The notes beneath the pieces were generated by a model. It ran no database searches. It was not told where the DNA came from and worked only from the letters and a program-made list of their open reading frames with translations. A DNA stretch of 64,000 nucleotides from Brachyspira intermedia PWS/A (GTDB lineage Bacteria > Spirochaetota > Brachyspiria > Brachyspirales > Brachyspiraceae), in the NCBI RefSeq assembly GCF_000223215.1, contig NC_017243.1:1736001-1800000 (forward strand). The letters run 5' to 3'. Shown here one piece after another: positions 9,769-24,228 of the stretch. Position 1 is the stretch's first letter. The number at the start of each line of letters is the position of its first letter. The translations under genes and the position numbers were made by a program.

Positions 9769-10251
9769 TTAAATATCTTTGATTAATTCAAAACGTCTTA
9801 TCCTATCATGAAGCCCGTTATATCCGCCGTTAATCTTTTTAGTAATTTCTTTAATATCTCTTATTCCAATTAAGCCTCTATTTTTATAATAGCAGCATGC
9901 AACTTCTGAAGCTACATCTTTTTCTAATAATAAATCAGGATTATTTATTAAATCTAAACCTGTCAATTTTGAATATTTACTATAATTGTTTCTTCCTGTA
10001 AGCTGAATTATACCTCTGCCTATGAATTTATATCCGTCTCCTGCATTTATATTGCCTAAATCTTTTCTATTGCCGTAAACTAATTCTGCTATAGATTTCC
10101 AGCCCTGAGAGCATATATTTTCAGCATTTTCTAATGTTTTTACTTTAGACGGAAAAACTTCTAAAAGTCTTTTAGGAGAATATTTAAAACTTTCTTTTAA
10201 TACAGTAAAATTCTTACTTTCATGACTTGTCTGTGCTAAAAACATTTTCAT
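9769..10251 (-). CDS. Endolysin, GH19 family (5' end probably lost)
   Basis: A 160-aa glycoside hydrolase family 19 protein that would cut peptidoglycan. Family marks: FLAQTSHES, with catalytic Glu11; GNRKDLGN, then GDGYKFIGRGIIQLTGRNNY; and a final helical region. The usual 25-40 residues before the HES motif are missing. The frame stays open upstream to 10312 (encoding LNLEKYFSKYSITDEYD, which looks like genuine family sequence) but has no ATG, GTG or TTG. A lost base near 10299-10301 would join it to the small membrane ORF upstream. Confidence 0.8.
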   Translation of the reverse strand: MKMFLAQTSHESKNFTVLKESFKYSPKRLLEVFPSKVKTLENAENICSQGWKSIAELVYGNRKDLGNINAGDGYKFIGRGIIQLTGRNNYSKYSKLTGLDLINNPDLLLEKDVASEVACCYYKNRGLIGIRDIKEITKKINGGYNGLHDRIRRFELIKDI

Positions 10252-10298
10252 ATCATATTCATCAGTAATAGAGTATTTACTAAAATATTTTTCTAAAT

Positions 10299-10441: not shown

Positions 10442-11257
10442 TTATTTTGTATAAAAAACAAAGCCTATTACATTAAAACCTAATTCACCTGCTGGAATTA
10501 CAGTACCATGTTGAGTAAGGTGTTGAATAATAACGGTAACAAATAATTGTTTTTTAACCTATTAACATTTGTACACAATCCTATATCTAGAGGAATGTTA
10601 AAAGTATCTACATTTCTCATTTTATAATCGTATATAAATCTATCATTCATTATATTTGATACAATAGTATCTTTATAGCATTTTATCTCACTATATATTA
10701 AATCTGTTACATTATTAGCTATATTTATGTTTCCACTCGGATTATAGTATTTACCTTCAGATTTTACAGAAAAACTTTTTTTACATACATACCATACATT
10801 CTTTTACCATCTAATGTTTTTCCTGTATCAAATTCTACATTAGTTTTTATATCTTTAGGTATTAAAGACATTATGCTATTTATTTGATTCTGAAGATTTT
10901 TGTCGGCATTTGTTCTGTCTGTTATTTCTTTACTGATTTTCTGATTAAGTTCTGTTTTCACAGCATTATCAGCTTGTGTTATTGTTTGAGTAAGAATATT
11001 TTTTAATGCCGTATCTGCATCATTATAAAGTTTTTTATGGCTTCTAATTTCTGAGAATTATCTGCAGTTTCATCTTCTCCATTTGGACTGATAGATGCTG
11101 CTTTTAATAATGACTGAGAAAATCCCCAATTATCATTAAGTAAATCTGCTATTATTTCTGTACCGTTTGTATTGCCCGGACTTCCAGCATCTACTGCTTT
11201 TGTATTTGGAAATTCTTCTCCATTAGTATTTATAAATGCTTGACTGTAATCTTTCAT
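10442..11257 (-). pseudogene. Tail fibre gene broken by three frameshifts
   Basis: Starts at 11257 (MKDYSQAFINTNGEEFPNT, a tail-fibre-like N-terminus with KLEAIKN). It continues through coiled-coil sequence (DADTALKNILTQ, then DKNLQNQINSIMSLIP) and a beta-rich part (GKYYNPSGNINIANNV) to a C-terminus ending GFNVIGFVFYTK at 10442. Four frames are used in turn. The breaks fall at A-runs near 11024-11030, 10776-10784 and 10556-10562, and each is cured by one added A. It would have bound the host surface. Its place beside the lysis genes is unusual. Confidence 0.65.
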
Positions 11258-13338: not shown

Positions 13339-15300
13339 CTACTTAATTTCATCGTAAAAATAACCTTGCTTAGAATATTCCCAGAAATCTTTCCAATTAA
13401 GATACTCTATATTTAATTCATATTTACAAATATTAAATGCAAAAAATTCTAAATTAGCTAAATTATAGCAATGTGTATCGAATAAATGGTTTTCCCGTCC
13501 TGCTGTTAATTTCCAGCGTGTGCGTATATATTTATTTGTTATTTTATCATATTCATCAATTCTATTTTCTGCTGAATAATGATCAAAATAATCATCTGCA
13601 AAATCATTAGGAAAATTAATATACCAATCGGGTAATAGTTTATTAGTTTCTCTTGGTAAATTAAGAGTTCTTGCTATAAAGTCTTTTTGCTTTGTAGTGT
13701 TTATATGAAGTGCTAGAGAAAGACCTGCTTTTAATATAGTATCTCTATTGAAAGCCTTATAAGTTAATCCGCCTTGTATATAATCATTTCCTTTTATGGC
13801 ATAGACTCCGTAACTATAATGTTTGCAAAACTCATATACATAATCCGTATATTTTCCGCTGTCTATAAATGTACTATTTATTCTGTATATTTTTTCATCA
13901 TCTGAAATCCAATTCTTATTCATTACTATATCATCAAGCTGTTTCCAAACTATAGAATTATAATTTTCTGTTTCTCCTTCTATAAAAAATGCATCTATCA
14001 AATAGCTTATTCCTCTTTCACACCAGCCTCGTATATCTACCCATAATCCGTTTTTTTGTACATCTACAGCTGAAGTTAATAATAAAATACCGCTTCCTGT
14101 TTCTTCTATAAAATTTTTATTATTTATTTGATTTTTTAAATAATGATAACTTCTGTTTTGTTTTACTTTATCTGCTCTTATAGCTTCGCCTCTTTCTTCA
14201 AATGGAAGTCCTTGCATAAGGTTTCTAAATTCTCTATATTCCTCTTTATCTTTTAATCTATTATTTTTTATATCCCAGCATTTACTCCATTTTTGAACTA
14301 TATCCTCCCAAGAAAACATTCCTACAGCTGAATATAAAGCAGAAATGTGATAGCTTATTAATTTAGGATCTTTAGATTTTGAAGTTGAAATCCATTCTCC
14401 TTCCTGAAGTATTATAGATTTATCATGATTTTTCATTATATGTCCGCAATATTTGCATTTATATCCTACAGAACTATAATCTATTTCTCCGTTGTTATGA
14501 CTGAATACTATTCCGTATGTATGTCCTGTTTCTGTTATGCCGTGAAATATTAATTCCTGTTTCTTCTTGCATTTTATGCAAGGAACAAAAAACTTTCTTT
14601 GATCACCTTCTTTATATAATTTATATATTTTACTTGTTTGTTCTACTAATGGTGTAGATATATATAATATTTTTCTTTTTGAAGCATAAGCATTAGTTCT
14701 ATTATCTGCTAAACTTACTGGATCGCCTTCTTTTCCTATTTTATCAGGCATACCGTCCAATTCATCAAATAAAATTACTGGAAAACTCATACTTCTTAAT
14801 TTGCCCGGATTTTGTGCTCCTATTGCTATTAAAAATCCTCCAATATAATCTTTTTGCAAACTTGTATCGCCAGTCTTTTTTGTATTTACTCCAGTTTGTG
14901 AAAAAATCCTATCTCTTAATTTACAGCTGTCTATCATTCTTTCTACTTTTATTTCCATATTCATTTTTACAAGTTCTTTATCAGCTGAAATATATAATTG
15001 AGGCTTAGGATCGCAGCCTATATTATAAGCTATAATATTTTCTAAAATGCCAGTTGTTGCTCCTATTTGTACGCCTTTCATTACAACTATTTTTTGATAT
15101 GGAGATTTTGGCGACATATTATCAAGTATTTCTCTCCAGAAAGGAGTTCTTGAAAACTTATAAAATCCCGGTATAGGAGATATTTCTTTATCTAATGCTC
15201 TAACTCTTTCTATATAATGACTAGGAAGTTCATATTCTTTTTTGTATGTCAATCGGTCGAACATTTTTATTATAAAGGATAATTCATGTTCTTTATTCAT
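13339..15300 (-). CDS. Terminase large subunit, GpA family
   Basis: A 653-aa packaging ATPase/nuclease of the lambda GpA family. The ATPase P-loop region is MKGVQIGATTG, Walker B is PVILFDELDG, and a Cys4 zinc site (CIKC and CKYC) lies about residues 225-280. The C-terminal nuclease domain has DVQKNGLWVDIRGW and FIDSGKYTDYVYEF. It overlaps the small-subunit gene by 8 nt, indicating translational coupling. Intact and normal length. Confidence 0.9.
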   Translation of the reverse strand: MNKEHELSFIIKMFDRLTYKKEYELPSHYIERVRALDKEISPIPGFYKFSRTPFWREILDNMSPKSPYQKIVVMKGVQIGATTGILENIIAYNIGCDPKPQLYISADKELVKMNMEIKVERMIDSCKLRDRIFSQTGVNTKKTGDTSLQKDYIGGFLIAIGAQNPGKLRSMSFPVILFDELDGMPDKIGKEGDPVSLADNRTNAYASKRKILYISTPLVEQTSKIYKLYKEGDQRKFFVPCIKCKKKQELIFHGITETGHTYGIVFSHNNGEIDYSSVGYKCKYCGHIMKNHDKSIILQEGEWISTSKSKDPKLISYHISALYSAVGMFSWEDIVQKWSKCWDIKNNRLKDKEEYREFRNLMQGLPFEERGEAIRADKVKQNRSYHYLKNQINNKNFIEETGSGILLLTSAVDVQKNGLWVDIRGWCERGISYLIDAFFIEGETENYNSIVWKQLDDIVMNKNWISDDEKIYRINSTFIDSGKYTDYVYEFCKHYSYGVYAIKGNDYIQGGLTYKAFNRDTILKAGLSLALHINTTKQKDFIARTLNLPRETNKLLPDWYINFPNDFADDYFDHYSAENRIDEYDKITNKYIRTRWKLTAGRENHLFDTHCYNLANLEFFAFNICKYELNIEYLNWKDFWEYSKQGYFYDEIK

Positions 15301-16015
15301 TATTATTTTCCAAATGTTTATTGAGCAGTTTATTTATTTCTCTTTTTATTGATTCTTTAGTTTCTGTTAGAATCATAGAAAAGTCTTTTGTCATTTCTTC
15401 TATAATTTTAATTCTTACATTATTTTCATTAGTTTTTATTAATGCTGTTAAATTATCTACTGCACTATCCGGATAATCTAATAATCTTAAATTAAGAAGT
15501 TCTATATACTTAAATATATATTTCATAACAAAGTCTTTTTCTATAAGTTCTAAGTCTCTTTCTTTTATTTTTTGTTCTCTTTCCTGTGCCTGTAATAATT
15601 TGTATAGTACATCAGCCCAGAACTTTAATTTTACTGGTTCATCATATTCTATAACAAGTTCTTTTATAGTAAGGTTCATTAAATATGCAGGAAGTCCTGT
15701 TATATCTGTAAATTTCTTTTCATCTAAGATTTCAGTTTCTTTTTCTTCATTATTTCCTTTATTTTTCAGACTTTGACTGCTTTTATCTGTAATTTTTTCA
15801 ATATTTTCTAAGTTATGTCCAGATATTGATTTGGCAAAATTATTTATATCCTCTAATGTTAATCCTTTATTAAGAAGATAAGATATATTAACTTCATTTG
15901 TTAGGTCATATCTGTACTGATTATCTCTAATTAATTTTTTATTTTTTACTGCCTGTCTTAGAGCTTCTATGCTTACATTTGCTAATCGTCCAAACTCTTT
16001 TGAACTTACTTTCAT
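15293..16015 (-). CDS. Terminase small subunit, Nu1-like
   Basis: About 240 aa from the ATG at 16015, which has AGGAAG upstream; the longer reading from 16069 lacks a ribosome site. The N-terminal winged helix (MKVSSKEFGRLANVSIEALR) would bind the packaging site. A charged linker and long helices follow. It is translationally coupled to the large subunit, as expected for a DNA-packaging initiator. It is longer than lambda Nu1 (181 aa). Confidence 0.7.
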   Translation of the reverse strand: MKVSSKEFGRLANVSIEALRQAVKNKKLIRDNQYRYDLTNEVNISYLLNKGLTLEDINNFAKSISGHNLENIEKITDKSSQSLKNKGNNEEKETEILDEKKFTDITGLPAYLMNLTIKELVIEYDEPVKLKFWADVLYKLLQAQEREQKIKERDLELIEKDFVMKYIFKYIELLNLRLLDYPDSAVDNLTALIKTNENNVRIKIIEEMTKDFSMILTETKESIKREINKLLNKHLENNNE

Positions 16016-16150
16016 AAACTTCCTGTATGATATATTAATTGAAAACTTTTCAAGTATAAAAAAATGCATTTACTATTCAAAAGCCGCACAGCTGGAGCAT
16101 AATTGCGTACGCTGGTATGGCTCACAGTACCTTAAAAATGTATACCTATC

Positions 16151-16178
16151 TTGAAAATGTTTTTATAGCTATTACACT
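16151..16178 (+). promoter_or_regulatory. Sigma70-type promoter of plus-strand gene pair
   Basis: TTGAAA (16151-16156), 16-nt spacer, TACACT (16173-16178). Transcription would begin at about the ATG at 16185, giving a leaderless or nearly leaderless mRNA, consistent with no ribosome site being visible. Confidence 0.5.
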
Positions 16179-16184
16179 ACATAT

Positions 16185-16775
16185 ATGAATATAAGCAATA
16201 TACTTAACAAATTACAATGCAATACCGCTTTTGCTAAACCTCTTGAAATAGTTTTTTCTGAATACCAGTTTCATAATTACCATCAGTTAATTTCATTCAT
16301 TACACAAATAGCATTAAAATCAGAAAATTTTTATTTCACAGAGGAATCTTTCAGTAGCACAAATAAACTTATAAACTCTTTTGAATGTATGAATATTAAG
16401 CAGGCTGAAAAATTATCTAAAAAAGGAGATAAATCTATAGCAGCGTACATCAAAAAGTATGGAACTGCAAATGATAATAACAAATATAATTACAGAGAAA
16501 GAGGTTTAATTAGATTAAAAGGAAAAGAAAATTATGCTTTATATGGTAAGAAATTAGGCATTGATTTAATACAAAGTCCTTATAATGCTAAAAGAGATTA
16601 TATAGCTGCTAGAATTGCTTTAGAGTATTGGTTTCATAATAAATGTAATGAAAAAATTAATAATTTGGAAGAACTTACAAGAACTGTTCAAGGAAATATT
16701 TATTCTATAGATAAAATTATAGAAATGATAAATATAATAAAAAGTCCAAACCAAAAAGGAGATATTAATGCCTAA
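16185..16775 (+). CDS. GH19-like protein lacking the catalytic glutamate
   Basis: A 196-aa protein aligning by eye with the GH19 endolysin of the same prophage. SFITQIALKSENF stands in place of FLAQTSHESKNF, so His and the catalytic Glu are replaced by Leu and Lys. YRERGLIRLKGKENY matches FIGRGIIQLTGRNNY, and DYIAARIALEYW matches the later helix. The scaffold is therefore retained without the active site. It lies on the strand opposite the packaging genes, with its own promoter. It might bind peptidoglycan or act as a superinfection or immunity factor; unproven. Confidence 0.6.
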   Translation: MNISNILNKLQCNTAFAKPLEIVFSEYQFHNYHQLISFITQIALKSENFYFTEESFSSTNKLINSFECMNIKQAEKLSKKGDKSIAAYIKKYGTANDNNKYNYRERGLIRLKGKENYALYGKKLGIDLIQSPYNAKRDYIAARIALEYWFHNKCNEKINNLEELTRTVQGNIYSIDKIIEMINIIKSPNQKGDINA

Positions 16776-17103
16776 CAAAAAAACTTCTATTAAAGAATTA
16801 GATGATTATATTAAAGCTCATAAGGATAATGAAAAAGCAAAAGCTGTATTAGATGAAAAGAAAAAAGCAGCCATTAGATATCTTAAAAATAATACTGATG
16901 GAAAGATAGAGTATAATCATAAAAATATAACTTTAGTAAACACAAATAAATATGCTTATTCTTCTGAGGTTACAGGTATTCAAAAAAATATAGATGCTCT
17001 TATAGAAGATAGAAAAAAGCAGGAAAAAATAGAAGTGTTAAATGGAACAGCAAAAGTTATAGATGTTTCCAGTTACATAAAAATGACTGATAAGGAAGCA
17101 TAA
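16768..17103 (+). CDS. Hypothetical charged protein
   Basis: A 111-aa Lys/Glu-rich protein, mostly helical, starting MPNKKTSIKELDDYIKAH. It overlaps the preceding GH19-like gene by 8 nt and has AAGGAG upstream, so the two form a small plus-strand operon. It converges with the gpZ-like gene with no gap. No known domain recognised. Confidence 0.55.
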   Translation: MPNKKTSIKELDDYIKAHKDNEKAKAVLDEKKKAAIRYLKNNTDGKIEYNHKNITLVNTNKYAYSSEVTGIQKNIDALIEDRKKQEKIEVLNGTAKVIDVSSYIKMTDKEA

Positions 17104-17799
17104 TTATATTATATGTTTAGATTTTAATAATTTATTTATATTAGAATTGAATATATTTTGAAAATCTTTAATAGGTTTCTCTATAGCAGGTTTTAACCAT
17201 TCTCTTTTTTCTATTCTAGCTTCTTTTTGAGATAAATTATATATATGTTCTTTTGTGAAATAAGTTTTATCTCCTGCTTTAGTGAAACCTGTTATTTTAT
17301 AAATATTATCTTTATATCTTAAAAATTTATTTTTCTTATATGCTTCATAAGCTGCTGCTATAAGACGTGATTTTTTACTTCCTTTTCCTTTATTGTATTT
17401 AATTATATTTCTTTTTATTTTATTATAATAAAGTTCTTTTGAAACTAAGTTAGAATTACTTCCATTTCTAGCTGCTGTTTGAGCCATTAAAATATTATTT
17501 CCTGTTTTACTTTTCTTTATTCCGCCTTCTTCATGCAAAGCCATATATGATATTTTATCTCTGGCACCTACAGATGAAAACATATTAGATATACTTGTAT
17601 TTTCTGCTTTTTCTACTTGTATATTTCTCTTTGTGAAATTATTTCTCAAATTAAAATCATTGTTTATATTTTGTAAAGCATTTTTCCTGCTTAAAAAAAC
17701 AACAGTATTCAAAGTGTTTTTTATTGATATTTCAGCGGCTTTTTTAATATTTGCAAATCCGAATTTTAATTTACTTGTATCTACTTTAATTTCATACAT
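17104..17799 (-). CDS. Minor tail / tail completion protein, gpZ-like
   Basis: A 231-aa protein with the gpZ-type pattern SRKNALQNINNDFNLRNNFT (around 37-57) and MALHEEGG (around 86-93), ending in a basic, helical C-terminus. In lambda and relatives gpZ completes the tail before joining. Here it lies upstream of the terminase genes instead of among tail genes, suggesting module rearrangement. Intact. Confidence 0.55.
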   Translation of the reverse strand: MYEIKVDTSKLKFGFANIKKAAEISIKNTLNTVVFLSRKNALQNINNDFNLRNNFTKRNIQVEKAENTSISNMFSSVGARDKISYMALHEEGGIKKSKTGNNILMAQTAARNGSNSNLVSKELYYNKIKRNIIKYNKGKGSKKSRLIAAAYEAYKKNKFLRYKDNIYKITGFTKAGDKTYFTKEHIYNLSQKEARIEKREWLKPAIEKPIKDFQNIFNSNINKLLKSKHII

Positions 17800-18214: not shown

Positions 18215-18880
18215 TTATATGCATAAATTAATAAATAAATGATGTAATTCTATATTTTCTAAACTAATTCTAGTATTATTTGATTTATAATGTGCTTTAT
18301 CATTATCTTCTGCTACTGTTATTTTTATGCAATCATCATTAGACCATTTTACTGTAGAATCTTTACCTGATTTTACTAATTCTAATATCCATTTATTTAT
18401 TTGTTCATAGAAATATTTATAATCTTTATTTTGCACATATCCTATTATGGCAGATATATTATAATTTTCTCCATGAATTCCTAATTTAAATCTTTGTATT
18501 CCACCATTTTTATTTTCAAAACCTGTAACATATTCCATTTCCCGTTTTTTTGATGGAGTTGGTAACCTTTTGGCTTCAATAACAAGAATTGTTTTTCTAT
18601 CAATACCATAGCATGCTATATCTATTTTACATTGACCTTTTTGTGGTTCTTCAGAATTAAAATAATAATTATGTTCTACTTTATTATAGGTGGTTAAAAA
18701 TTTTACTAATTTTGAAGTTAAATTATTTTCATTTTCAGAACAAGGTTGCATTTGCTCTTCTTTATAAAGATATAGTTTCCATTCGTCTAATCTATTATAT
18801 ATAAAATCAATGGCATTATCAATTAATTCGATTTTTTGATTAGTACAGTTATTGTGTGATAAAATATTATTTTCTAACAT
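18215..18880 (-). CDS. PD-(D/E)xK nuclease-like restriction protein
   Basis: A 221-aa protein. The segment QCKIDIACYG...ILVIEAKRL shows the D-x(n)-E-A-K core of PD-(D/E)xK nucleases (around 115-135), followed by REMEYVTGFENKNGGIQRFK, a pattern seen in restriction-like proteins. It is the last gene of the cargo operon, 4 nt after the methyltransferase gene, suggesting a restriction or defence role paired with that methylase. Target and activity unknown. Confidence 0.65.
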   Translation of the reverse strand: MLENNILSHNNCTNQKIELIDNAIDFIYNRLDEWKLYLYKEEQMQPCSENENNLTSKLVKFLTTYNKVEHNYYFNSEEPQKGQCKIDIACYGIDRKTILVIEAKRLPTPSKKREMEYVTGFENKNGGIQRFKLGIHGENYNISAIIGYVQNKDYKYFYEQINKWILELVKSGKDSTVKWSNDDCIKITVAEDNDKAHYKSNNTRISLENIELHHLFINLCI

Positions 18881-18884
18881 TTAT

Positions 18885-21722
18885 TTATCCTTGAGTAATT
18901 ATATCATTAATTACATCATCTACATCTCTTATAGCTATAGATTTAATCCAATATCTTAATTTATTAGGTTTTACAATTATTAATATATCATTTGAAAAAA
19001 TACGTATAATTCTATTAATATATAGAGAAGTTCCATATTTATAATATATTTCTTTTACTAAGTTATTCATTAACTTTTCATCGTTAATAATATTAAAACT
19101 AGTATTTTTTGTAAATGAATAAACACTAAAAATTATACCATTCTTTTCAAACATATATAAGAAATTAAAATTATTAAAAGAAGTAAGCATTAAACGAACA
19201 AATGTATCATTATATTTATTAATATCTTCTTTACTAGTTACTTTTTTCATAATATATGACTCATTACCTTTTTTTATAAAATCTATAATATAGTCAATAT
19301 CATTTATAATATCTTTTTCCCATTCTAATAAAGATTTTTCAATATCCTTCTCAAAAGGGACAGAAATGACATCATTTTTTGATAATACATATCTTTGAGA
19401 TATACTATAATTGCTTAATATTTTTATAGAACTAGACATTATTTTTTTATTTCTATAAAAATTGTTTGCTAATTCTATTAGATTTATATCATTTTTATTA
19501 TTTGATATAATGCCAACTATTCTATCTTTGTATGCTATATCATATTTTTTAGAAATTGCACAATCTAAATTTACACCTTCATATATCAAGAATAAAGGAG
19601 ATTTATATATTTTTTCATTTCTAGCTCTTACAAATTTCTTTTCTTTTACAAAATTTAAATTTTCAAATATATTTGAATTTATTTCAAATTCTACATTTTT
19701 TAATTGTTTCTCTGATATATATTTATAATTTGCTAACCATTCAGCCTTCTTTTTTTGAGATTCTGAATTTTCACCACCAATTATATATCCTTCATAAGAT
19801 TCTAAATTTTTAGATTTTAAAAAATCTTTTAGTTTAGGAAAACTATATAATTTTTTCATTAAATAAATTATTCTACCACCACCCAATATATTTGATAAAC
19901 AAGAAAAATTATATTGTAGTATATCATTATTATAAATTATATTATTATCATAATGATTCATTTCAAAAAATATTTTATTTTTTGAAATGATTGTGTTTCT
20001 AAATATTAAATGTTTGATTTTATGATTATCTTCTACTTTTTTATTTTTTTTCTACTAATAGAGCAACACACTTTGTGTTTACTTTTTTATTATAATTATT
20101 AAATAGGAAATTTATAGAAGTAAAATCATATATTTTAGATACATAAAAATTATTAAAATTTCTCTTTTTCTCTTAGATAATTTTTTATTATATAAAATAC
20201 CATATGGCTGAATTAGTAAAGATTTTCCATTATCAGATAAATATTCATTTATACATTTTATTTGTATATCGTAACATATTACTCCCTTTTTTATTTTTTG
20301 CCTATTATCTGTATCTACTTCAAATGGTGGATTTCCTATTATGATATCAAATCCATTTTTGACCTTATTCTTTATTTCATCATTACTATCAAAAAAATTA
20401 TTATTAAATATATTTGAGTTTATTAATTTATCAAATTTAAGTTTTTCCCATATAACATTAGGCGTCAATGCATCGCATATTCCAAGAGCTAAACTAAAAC
20501 ATGTTAATTGTGCAGCCTCTTTTTGTATTTCTATACCAAATATAGAATTAACTAAGATATTTTTCAATTGTTCTGGTGATAACATATTACTATCATATGG
20601 AGAAGATATATTTTTATTGATAATATTTTTTAGTACAAGTCTTTTAAATGCCGATACTAAAAATATACCAGAACCACAAGTAGGATCAAATATTTTCTCA
20701 TTACCTCTTATCTCATTTAAAGGCATAACCTCATCTAATATAAGATTTACAAGATGGATAGGAGTAAATATAGCTCCTAATTTATCATTTGCAAAGTATT
20801 GATATATTGAACTTAATACCTCTACAGGAATATGTTTAAAATTATATAGTTTCCAAAGATACCATTGATTTTTATAATTTTTAGCTTCTATTACTTTATA
20901 TAAAGTATTGATAATTTCTAAATCTAATTCTTTTATATTGTCTAATACAAAAATATCTCCATTAAATTTATTTTCTAAAATCAATAAAAGTTTTTTTAAA
21001 GATTCTATATTTTGATCTCTTAGTATATCAATATAAGATGAATATTTTTCTCCTATTGTATAAAAAAATTCTTTTTTTAATACTTCTCTATCTTCTAAAT
21101 ATTTTATTAATAGTGTTACTATTAATAATTTTCTGCCGATAATATGTTTCTGTTTATTATATTTAAATTTATTCATTATATATTTATCAGCATCTTTTAT
21201 TTTATCTATTAATATCTTATGAGATAATTCTTCTTCTATTATTTTATCTTCATTTGAACTATCTTCCCAAAATGTACCATCAATTAATCTATAAATTGAA
21301 TATTTTTCAAATTGTTTATTATTATTTATTGAAGTTTTTAAGTCTATGATATCATTTATAAATTCAAAATGATCTCCTTTATATGTGGGTTTTTTATTTG
21401 TAAATATTATATCTATTTTAGTATCATTAATTATATATAGTATTGGTACAGATGCATTTAACCATAAATAATATTTTATATCTTCAAAATAAGTATCAAT
21501 TAATTTGTCATAAGTATTGTCTATAATATATGCTATTGGTTTTAGCGAATTAACATTATTTTGTAATAATATATAATTAATTTTATTACTTAATTTTCTT
21601 GCTTCATAAGCATATACTTTTACATCGTCAGTTTCCTGTGATAAATCTTCATTAAGATTTATAATATAACTTTTTAAATTTTGATCATTTTTGTCAAAAC
21701 CTATTAATTCTAATATATCCAT
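18885..21722 (-). pseudogene. N6-adenine DNA methyltransferase, Eco57I-like (two frameshifts)
   Basis: One gene of 945 codons read in two pieces (20112-21722 and 18885-19961). The N-terminal region is helical. The methylase core has motif I FDPTCGSGIFLVSAF (around 347) and motif IV NPPF. The stretch between pieces is open in another frame (YVSKIYDFTSINFLFNNYNK). One missing base in a T run near 20155-20160 shifts out, and one extra base in an A8 run near 20046-20053 shifts back, so the total length stays a multiple of three. The C-terminal piece would be the target-recognition domain. It may be inactive, or switchable by slippage. Confidence 0.75.
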
Positions 21723-21778
21723 AATCTATTACTTTTAATAATACTATATTTTAATTATTTATATTAATAAAAATTAAT

Positions 21779-23290
21779 CTAAAATCCTTTTATTATATTA
21801 ACATTTCCCCAATTACAATATTGATTACCATTTGGAATTAATGATTTATATGGTTTATTATAAATAGTATCTAAATTACGATTAGATAGTTCTTCTTTTA
21901 ATTTTTTTTCTAATTTATCCCACCAAGAAATTCTCATAAATATATTTTCTATATAACTAAATACTAATTGGATTATTATATTACATATGTTATTTTTTTC
22001 TTTTTTATATGTTTTTATAATGGAATCTATAAATTTAGGATTTATTTTATCATCTGCAAACCACTGAAAAATTACAGCACCACCATTTTTATAATATATA
22101 GAATTAATTGCGATATTTTCTAAATTATTAATATCATTTTGTAAACAATTACCATCAAAATCATATAATATGGGAGCTGCTCCAGAAAACAATATATCTG
22201 GTATATTAGAGAATGTAAAAACTAAATATTTTATTGAATCGTAGTTTTTATTTATAAATACTTGAAAATATCTATCTCGCATTTTTTTACAATCTTCTGC
22301 ACCTTTTTCGAGTTCTTTTAAAAAAGTATTATCATTTAATAAATTCTTATAAAATACATTTTTTATATAGGAGTCTATATTTCCATATTCTTTAGTAATG
22401 AATTCTTTTAAATAGTTTGGGATAGTAGCAGACTTACATTCTCCAATAAAAGGAGTAGTTATTACATTAGATATATCACTAATAAGATTTTTTTGAAATT
22501 CTATACTCCATTCTTTATTATAGTATTCCTTAATAAAACCTCTATACCCCAATAAGAAAGCATTTTTTTCATTTATTTCTACATCTTCTTCATCGATATC
22601 TTTAAATAGAATATTATCATGATATCTACAAAATCCATAAAACGTAGAAGCTTCATTTACTCCTATTTTTTTTGGTTGCAATATACAACTTGGATCCTTA
22701 TTATTATCATCAAAAAATTTATAAAAATTAGTTTCAAAATTATATAAAAAATTATTTTCAGATATTTTTCTTAATGAAGAACTTTTAGATATTGAGTGAG
22801 CACTAGTCATATCATTAGAACATTTGGCTTTATCTATTTCATGGTAACATTTTCTAAATCTTTTTTTAGACTTTAAAATATCTGTAACATTTTTTTTAAT
22901 AATGTTTTCAAAATTTTTATAACTATTATCCATATCAATTAACTGAGATTTTGTAATATAATTTGTTCTCTCAATATCAAAACCCATAACAACAATCCTT
23001 TCTTCTTTCATTTTTTTCATTTTTTCAATTATAAAACGAAATACAAAATAAATAGAATATTTTTCAAAAAAAGCTTTAATCTTATCTATATATTCATTAT
23101 CCATACCAATTTTTATGTATTTAGGATAATCAAGTTCATTTGTATCCATATCAATTTGAAAATATTCATTAAATATTGAAAAGAACTCTATAATTTCTTC
23201 TTTATTAAGATATAAACAAAAATTTTCTTCCTTAGTTCCATCTAAATTTGATATTATACAACAAATGCTGAACATCTTTAACCTCGACAT
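21779..23290 (-). CDS. Cargo-operon protein with Cys/His cluster
   Basis: A 503-aa protein of unknown function between the XRE regulator (22 nt) and the methyltransferase (56 nt). Residues about 148-175 (KCYHEIDKAKCSNDMTSAHS) carry Cys, His, Cys and an AHSISKS motif, and STFYGFCRYHDNILF supplies a further Cys-x2-His-Asp. This resembles a zinc-bound HNH-like centre. The C-terminal half has no recognisable motif. Position suggests a defence or regulatory subunit; nuclease activity is only a hypothesis. Confidence 0.6.
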   Translation of the reverse strand: MSRLKMFSICCIISNLDGTKEENFCLYLNKEEIIEFFSIFNEYFQIDMDTNELDYPKYIKIGMDNEYIDKIKAFFEKYSIYFVFRFIIEKMKKMKEERIVVMGFDIERTNYITKSQLIDMDNSYKNFENIIKKNVTDILKSKKRFRKCYHEIDKAKCSNDMTSAHSISKSSSLRKISENNFLYNFETNFYKFFDDNNKDPSCILQPKKIGVNEASTFYGFCRYHDNILFKDIDEEDVEINEKNAFLLGYRGFIKEYYNKEWSIEFQKNLISDISNVITTPFIGECKSATIPNYLKEFITKEYGNIDSYIKNVFYKNLLNDNTFLKELEKGAEDCKKMRDRYFQVFINKNYDSIKYLVFTFSNIPDILFSGAAPILYDFDGNCLQNDINNLENIAINSIYYKNGGAVIFQWFADDKINPKFIDSIIKTYKKEKNNICNIIIQLVFSYIENIFMRISWWDKLEKKLKEELSNRNLDTIYNKPYKSLIPNGNQYCNWGNVNIIKGF

Positions 23291-23312
23291 ATTAATTAAT
23301 ATATTATTTTAG

Positions 23313-23657
23313 TTAAATATTTGTGTTTTTATATACAAAATTTTTATCATTAAAAGATACCTTATTATCTTGTTTATTATTTATAACATTAATTCCAACT
23401 AGACCTATTGTAGCACCTAAAGCAAGTGCAACACTTATGAATGTACTCATATTACAGTTAGCTCCCAATTCTACCTTAGACAATTGTTGTTGAGTAATTC
23501 CTGCTCTATTTGCTAATTCTTTTTGTGTAATGTTCTTCTCTAATCTGATTTTATTAATTTCAGAAGATAAATTTTGTAAAGTACAATTTATATCATAGTA
23601 CCTTTTTGTATCAATATCTTTTAAATACTCATTTTTATTTCTTTTTGTTAATTTCAT
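23313..23657 (-). CDS. XRE-family antitoxin/regulator (HigA-like)
   Basis: A 114-aa protein. Residues about 36-90 form a Cro/C1 helix-turn-helix (LEKNITQKELANRAGITQQQ, then LSKVELG). It is 28 nt downstream of the toxin gene, the reverse toxin-antitoxin order typical of HigBA. It probably binds the TTACATC/GATGTAA repeat overlapping the operon promoter and so may also control the downstream methylase and nuclease, like a restriction controller protein. Confidence 0.75.
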   Translation of the reverse strand: MKLTKRNKNEYLKDIDTKRYYDINCTLQNLSSEINKIRLEKNITQKELANRAGITQQQLSKVELGANCNMSTFISVALALGATIGLVGINVINNKQDNKVSFNDKNFVYKNTNI

Positions 23658-23685
23658 AATAAGTTTCCATTTTTACAATATATTT

Positions 23686-24072
23686 TTATGCTAATTTTTT
23701 TACCCATTCCTTGGCTAATTCTTCTTTAGTCTTATAAGTTAAATAAAAAATTTTCATAATTTTTTTTACATATTTTATTTCTTTTGAATAATTATTTTTC
23801 TGTTTTTTTATAAGGATAACCATAATAGCGTATTCATCATTCACATTATTTTCATCAAATGCATAAAAAAATAATATTCTAGACTTATGATTTTTATTAT
23901 ACAACTTAAGTTCCCAAATATTATTTTCTAAATGCTTACATTTTGGTTCTTTAAGCTCTTTACCATATAACTCTAATTGATCTAAAAGTGCCTCTATAGC
24001 TGTTTTAAATTCAATATCTTCAATTTTAGACATAGATTTTTCAAATTTATCTGTTTTCATTATAATTGTCAT
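23686..24072 (-). CDS. RelE/HigB-type toxin (Gp49-like)
   Basis: A 128-aa protein with the phage Gp49/HigB-type core: LEALLDQLELYGKELKEPKC-like helices, then NNIWELKLYNKNHKSRILFF (about 49-68), and an extra C-terminal helix containing KTKEELAKEW. Members are ribosome-dependent mRNA nucleases. The start is supported by AAGGA six nt upstream. First full gene of the cargo operon, before its antitoxin. Confidence 0.75.
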   Translation of the reverse strand: MTIIMKTDKFEKSMSKIEDIEFKTAIEALLDQLELYGKELKEPKCKHLENNIWELKLYNKNHKSRILFFYAFDENNVNDEYAIMVILIKKQKNNYSKEIKYVKKIMKIFYLTYKTKEELAKEWVKKLA

Positions 24073-24074
24073 AT

Positions 24075-24113
24075 TTAATCCTTACAAATAAAAATAATAT
24101 TATTAATTTCCAT
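24075..24113 (-). CDS. 12-codon leader peptide before the toxin
   Basis: ATG at 24113 with an AAAGGAG ribosome site, 12 codons (MEINNIIFICKD) and a stop 2 nt before the toxin ATG. The toxin ribosome site lies inside it. Ile-rich; it may couple or modulate toxin translation. Could be chance. Confidence 0.35.
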   Translation of the reverse strand: MEINNIIFICKD

Positions 24114-24146
24114 ATACAACTCCTTTCCTATAAATCTATACATTAT

Positions 24147-24175
24147 ATTTTACATCATAAAAGATGTAATGTCAA
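24147..24175 (-). promoter_or_regulatory. Promoter and operator of cargo operon
   Basis: On the minus strand: TTGACA (24175-24170), 17-nt spacer, TAAAAT (24152-24147). The inverted repeat TTACATC-n6-GATGTAA (24150-24169) lies between and over the -10 box, an ideal operator for the XRE antitoxin. Confidence 0.75.
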
Positions 24176-24228
24176 ATATTTTTTATATTTTTAAATTAAT
24201 TATATTTAATTAATATTTATAATAATCA

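Follow-up and report, generated by a model that had tools for sequence, protein, structure and literature searches.

A predicted GH19 endolysin-fold pseudoenzyme, conserved with a partner gene, in a prophage of Brachyspira intermedia

pGH19 is a 196-residue phage protein which, judged by its sequence and its structural model, is a real, conserved GH19 pseudoenzyme with a partner gene. It is encoded by an intact 196-codon open reading frame in a prophage within the window, the 64,000-nucleotide stretch of the Brachyspira intermedia PWS/A genome analysed here, and is followed by the partner, orf111 (Table 1). An earlier note on the interval 16151-17103 described a dead GH19 homologue and missed orf111, the second gene of that interval. 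pGH19 probably works as a non-cutting binder instead of an enzyme. Our tentative reading, held at a probability of roughly 0.4, is that the two genes form an accessory unit expressed in the lysogen, in which a cytosolic pseudo-endolysin and orf111 would bind and restrain a lysin or the lysin's partner.

Table 1. Features of the pGH19-orf111 locus and the ordinary lysin gene, in positions of the window
Feature	Position	Strand	Basis or remark
Ordinary GH19 lysin of the prophage, HES intact, N-terminally truncated here	9769..10251	-	Pfam, PHROG, comparison with L045
Terminase small subunit (terS)	15293..16069	-	phrog_57, E 4.2e-06
GC-rich island, 54% GC in a 26% GC prophage, just upstream of terS	16083..16134	.	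Composition; candidate cos/packaging site
Promoter-like match TTGAAA-16-TACACT	16151..16178	+	Motif match; not above chance
pGH19, predicted GH19 endolysin-fold pseudoenzyme	16185..16775	+	ORF, Pfam, PHROG, predicted fold, relatives
L44-K45-S46 codons, replacing H-E-S; catalytic Glu49 to Lys	16314..16322	+	Comparison with GH19 lysins
E54 codon, retained counterpart of E58, the second catalytic Glu	16344..16346	+	Comparison with GH19 lysins
K112 codon, at the place of the water-coordinating Thr130	16518..16520	+	Comparison with GH19 lysins
AAGGAG Shine-Dalgarno-like sequence for orf111, within the pGH19 end	16756..16761	+	Sequence; same context in two relatives
orf111, small charged protein, 111 aa	16768..17103	+	8-nt overlap with the pGH19 end; relatives directly precede active GH19 lysins
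Minor tail protein gene, convergent, stop abutting the orf111 stop	17104..17799	-	phrog_4688, E 4.4e-67

By predicted fold and by sequence homology, pGH19 belongs to the GH19 endolysin (ELYS) fold family. It matches the PHROG endolysin family phrog_181 with an E-value of 1.7e-31 and Pfam GH19 with an E-value of 0.0015, under the gathering score. A tblastn search matched 544 phage records, with identities below 60% and mostly annotated endolysins among the matches listed. Assignment to the chitinase subfamily of plant CHIT 3 and CHIT 4 was rejected; the nearest matches are endolysins, not chitinases. The AlphaFold model, made from a 60-row alignment holding only window proteins and proteins of related loci, has a pLDDT of 93.2 and a pTM of 0.87 and retains the small helical lobe of the GH19 endolysin fold. 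Its top Foldseek match in the PDB is the SPN1S endolysin (PDB 4ok7; E 1.4e-7), with which VIA-align gives a Z of 18.5 across 188 residues; the Z values for three endolysins (18.7, 18.5, 18.4) are tied. Structure prediction, which the earlier note had named as a check on its GH19 assignment, came out in its favour.

GH19 endolysins contain nine side-chain substrate and catalytic positions, taken here with their numbering from Table 1 of PMC8547705. Six of these are changed in pGH19 (H48L, E49K, Q128R, T130K, N187Q, and R196I), while E58, Y106, and N134 are retained, the Y106 assignment relying on an alignment that contains an insertion of two residues. The earlier note was right that the HES catalytic motif reads LKS, but its further statement, that the GH19 pattern is otherwise kept, fails at these positions; scaffold motifs, RG and NY among them, do persist. 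The catalytic trio E49/E58/T130 reads K/E/K, where an active enzyme would carry all three original residues. Glu49 is 99% conserved in GH19 endolysins (PMC8547705), and mutation of the equivalent Glu in the Pseudomonas GH19 lysin PaGH19Lys (E51V) abolished lysis, as reported in PMC12329726 citing Turnbull et al. PMC12329726 assigns the acid and base opposite to PMC8547705, with the residue catalytic in both. From the substitutions, catalysis and cleft binding of pGH19 both look lost.

The genus listing of GH19 matches has 51 entries, three of them pGH19 and its two near-copies. The 48 others include 47 with the HES Glu (29 among L001-L032, one at L045, and 17 of 18 further loci) and one scrambled fragment that lacks the segment. 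That fragment, L203 (G023:C14:111300-114000), was rejected as a second Glu-less GH19; at its locus, short pieces of lysin, integrase, and other phage genes stand in shuffled frames, either as a mosaic of gene fragments or as an artefact of assembly. A scan of viral contigs returned at least 600 stretches, of which at least 595 were confirmed as GH19 loci, and E49 and E58 are both present in 80/80 of the best 80. The scan patterns span the GRG and QLTG motifs, whose conservation in these loci is therefore partly a product of how the loci were picked, whereas E49 and E58 lie outside the patterns. Compared with 28 lysins (the truncated L004 and L011 were dropped), pGH19 keeps 2 of 8 cleft residues and 34 of 61 other near-invariant columns. 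This excess of cleft loss is not significant (P 0.14), so the data also fit drift of the entire protein once freed from catalysis.

Two further Brachyspira prophages, one in B. innocens ATCC 29796 and one in a Brachyspira metagenome assembly, carry pGH19 at the same site with 98-99% identity. The whole pGH19-orf111 pair is shared there at 95-99% protein identity, and both genes are intact in all three genomes. Viral-contig and genome-contig scans found no close pGH19 relatives beyond this three-phage group. Observed changes among the three near-identical sequences were set against a random placement of like substitutions. In pGH19, 4 changes alter an amino acid and 5 are silent, with 7.0 amino-acid changes expected (P 0.021); orf111 has 7 of each, with 11.6 amino-acid changes expected (P 0.0024). 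At this depth of sampling, the substitution pattern shows purifying selection on both genes, and pGH19, conserved at the same site and apparently constrained, is not decaying. In a tree, pGH19 adjoins the Brachyspira lysins on a long branch of 3.35 changes per column, with which its position among them is unsure. This whole-protein divergence, together with the non-significant excess of cleft loss, makes reuse of the scaffold for an unrelated role a serious rival to our reading.

The orf111 family links the pair to lysis genes. A family profile places relatives directly upstream of GH19, on the same strand, in 13 of the 29 non-pGH19 loci (L001-L032), and relatives are upstream in 4 of 18 further loci and absent at the L045 lysin. 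Relatives are thus upstream in 17/48 of the other listed genus matches and downstream in 0/48, counts in which some contigs are short or near-duplicates (e.g. L012, L026), leaving fewer independent cases. Because these relatives precede active GH19 lysins, pGH19 and orf111 would both derive from lysis cassettes. The pGH19-orf111 order is the reverse of that in Brachyspira lysis cassettes, so the tie to a lysin partner is indirect. Sequence searches of orf111 against Pfam, PHROGs, NCBIfam, and the PDB gave only weak, mutually inconsistent matches, a query of phage records gave weak matches only, and the AlphaFold model is poor (pLDDT 51, too low for a structure search). The pairing with pGH19 is the first functional lead for this family, which is found beside many Brachyspira lysins.

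pGH19 and orf111 lie between the minor tail gene and terS, beside the GC-rich island. The packaging and head genes (terS, gpA-type TerL, portal, protease, and major head protein) are on the minus strand, as is the minor tail gene, in agreement with the earlier note's placement of pGH19 opposite to the phage operon. We infer that the region is prophage pI2 of PMC3163572, a hybrid phage whose annotation includes an endolysin glycoside hydrolase. By gene arrangement the pair is an independent unit opposite the late operon, one of the features expected of a moron, and its strand, position, and conservation fit an accessory gene of this kind. By analogy with P2-like phages, which carry variable accessory or defence genes beside cos (PMC9122126), the spot between tail gene and terS beside the GC island would be typical for accessory genes. 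The P2-like genes old and tin resemble the pair as a small accessory unit at the packaging end; the pair differs in that no homology to them is shown, any defence role is putative, and cos is only a candidate here.

The GC island is a candidate cos site: within 836-25200, no 50-base windows other than those that begin at 16082-16083 reach 56% GC. Its single-strand folding is no better than that of shuffles, and its palindrome is not significant (392 of 2000 shuffles are equally good). A GC-rich stretch likewise lies a short way before terS in three distant Brachyspira phages that share the terminase type (L181-L183): their best 50-base windows reach 46-50% GC in loci of 24-27% GC, and none has a GH19-sized gene between the stretch and terS. 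The stretch is conserved among L181, L182, and L183 (GGGCTTTTGTGCCCGCCG or near) and may be a packaging site. The true terS start is likely 16015, which has an AGGAA ribosome-binding site. At 16064-16188, a 41-codon open reading frame of L047 (B. innocens) crosses the GC island and ends with an ATGA overlap on the pGH19 start; its frame is broken in the window, and L045 appears to retain it. A cargo region at 18215-24193, from a 108-aa gene to the integrase, differs in each of the three related prophages and here carries a methyltransferase resembling type IIG restriction enzymes.

Expression of pGH19 from its own promoter had been proposed earlier on the strength of TTGAAA-16-TACACT. The match is present at exactly 16151-16178, but it is no better than chance: the region holds 7 such sites, and shuffles a mean of 9.2 (sd 3.0). 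A leaderless start is possible, since no Shine-Dalgarno sequence precedes the pGH19 ATG. An Rfam scan of 15900-17300 gave no matches. Neither pGH19 nor orf111 has a transmembrane or signal-like segment by 19-residue hydropathy (maxima of 0.68 and 0.59). With no export signal, pGH19 would sit in the cytosol of a lysogen, away from peptidoglycan.

Lysines in place of Glu and Thr, the loss of most contacts, the lack of an export signal, the kept fold, and the cassette partner together point to protein binding in the cytosol. In the reading that we prefer, pGH19-orf111 would be a moron expressed in the lysogen, and pGH19 would stay cytosolic and act as a pseudoenzyme with orf111, making protein-protein contacts through the scaffold that it shares with real lysins. 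Most likely it would restrain a lysin or titrate the lysin's cassette partner; one of these would be the most economical target. Lysis might then be delayed or blocked for this phage, for co-resident Brachyspira phages, or for a VSH-1-type transfer agent. The fold, the catalytic losses, the conservation in three genomes, selection, the cassette partner, the cytosolic prediction, and the position count for this reading. The prophage's own lysin is truncated in this strain, so the target may be absent there. A bolder version is unlikely: pseudo-endolysin and cassette partner as a dedicated cytosolic antagonist of GH19 lysins in the lysogen, including those of rival prophages and VSH-1, so that a dead enzyme copy confers lysis immunity.

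The strongest alternative, if still rather unlikely, is an anti-phage (superinfection) protein in a cos-proximal accessory slot, with the GH19 scaffold reused for a role other than lysis. Proximity to terS and the GC island, the separate strand, the nearby cargo with its type IIG-like methyltransferase, the very long branch, and the P2 analogy all suit this idea. Against it, PADLOC defence models matched pGH19 and orf111 with 0 families at E 0.01, and the slot is invariant, the same pair occurring in all three phages.

The earlier note's own hypothesis was a peptidoglycan-binding decoy or shield, a dead protein that coats the wall and guards the lysogen from lysins. Its premise, that a GH19 homologue without catalytic function forms a unit apart from the late operon, is supported. 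The retained fold with its small helical lobe offers a possible binding route, and one catalytic Glu, a Tyr, and an Asn of the cleft are left. The decoy itself is weakened and now improbable, as the sugar-contact and catalytic positions are mostly replaced (six of nine), and pGH19, lacking any signal or transmembrane segment, could get to the wall only with the help of a holin or by some other means of export. A functionless relic, that is, a duplicated fragment of a lysin cassette in decay, would account for the extreme divergence of pGH19, the little identity left in its C-terminal part, and the company of other decayed genes in the prophage (the truncated lysin and a frameshifted fibre gene). 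Intact genes in three genomes, the deficit of amino-acid changes in both, and a complete high-confidence predicted fold make it quite improbable.

A packaging or virion protein, aiding DNA packaging or injected with the genome end, would explain the place beside terS and the GC island, but is highly improbable for a gene on the strand opposite to the packaging genes and missing upstream of terS in the three distant phages that share the terminase type. An active wall enzyme of altered mechanism or substrate, for which the retained E58 equivalent speaks, is hardly credible with Lys at both E49 and T130, near-invariance of Glu49 in endolysins, and lysis abolished by the equivalent replacement in the Pseudomonas lysin.

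pGH19 resembles GH19 phage endolysins (SPN1S, phrog_181) in its whole fold, second catalytic Glu, and RG and NY motifs; besides the six substitutions, it differs from them as a separate opposite-strand unit outside the lysis cassette. GH19 pseudoenzymes are described in plants (PMC8547705). The chitinase-like proteins GH19ED CHIT 3 and CHIT 4 and HbCLP1 (PDB 4mst) share with pGH19 a GH19 scaffold whose catalytic Glu is lost. In CHIT 3 this residue is deleted or exchanged, mostly to Lys as in pGH19, with little or no activity predicted (PMC8547705). The plant proteins belong to the chitinase subfamily, whereas pGH19 is of the phage endolysin subfamily and has no export signal and a coupled partner gene. 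In phage Mu, the releasin gp25 illustrates how an endolysin can be under the control of a small lysis protein that is no enzyme itself (PMC9239132). This releasin is tethered to the membrane and has a SAR endolysin as its target, whereas orf111 has no membrane segment. A literature search over titles and abstract openings found no dead-endolysin moron, which does not imply that there is none. A conserved dead endolysin outside the cassette, paired with a cassette partner, would offer a way to ask if phage lysins have protein partners in the cytosol and if a prophage can protect its lysogen against lysis from inside the cell.

The remaining observations concern lysis and tail genes of this and other Brachyspira phages. 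At 10298/10301, about 466 bases of L045 (17959-18425) are absent, which leaves the ordinary lysin without its N-terminus and also takes most of the gene for a 146-aa membrane protein with an HELVH motif; judged from its genes, the prophage of this strain is probably lysis-defective. At 10764-11257, a tail-fibre-like gene is split by a frameshift, compared with a single 280-aa open reading frame in L045 (16984-17826). The lysin of L048 may, at a guess from its position and neighbours, be the VSH-1 lysin. In the Brachyspira lysis cassette at L050:6406-6964, a small lipoprotein-like open reading frame overlaps the end of a membrane-anchored one in another frame, an arrangement that resembles an embedded Rz/Rz1 spanin pair.
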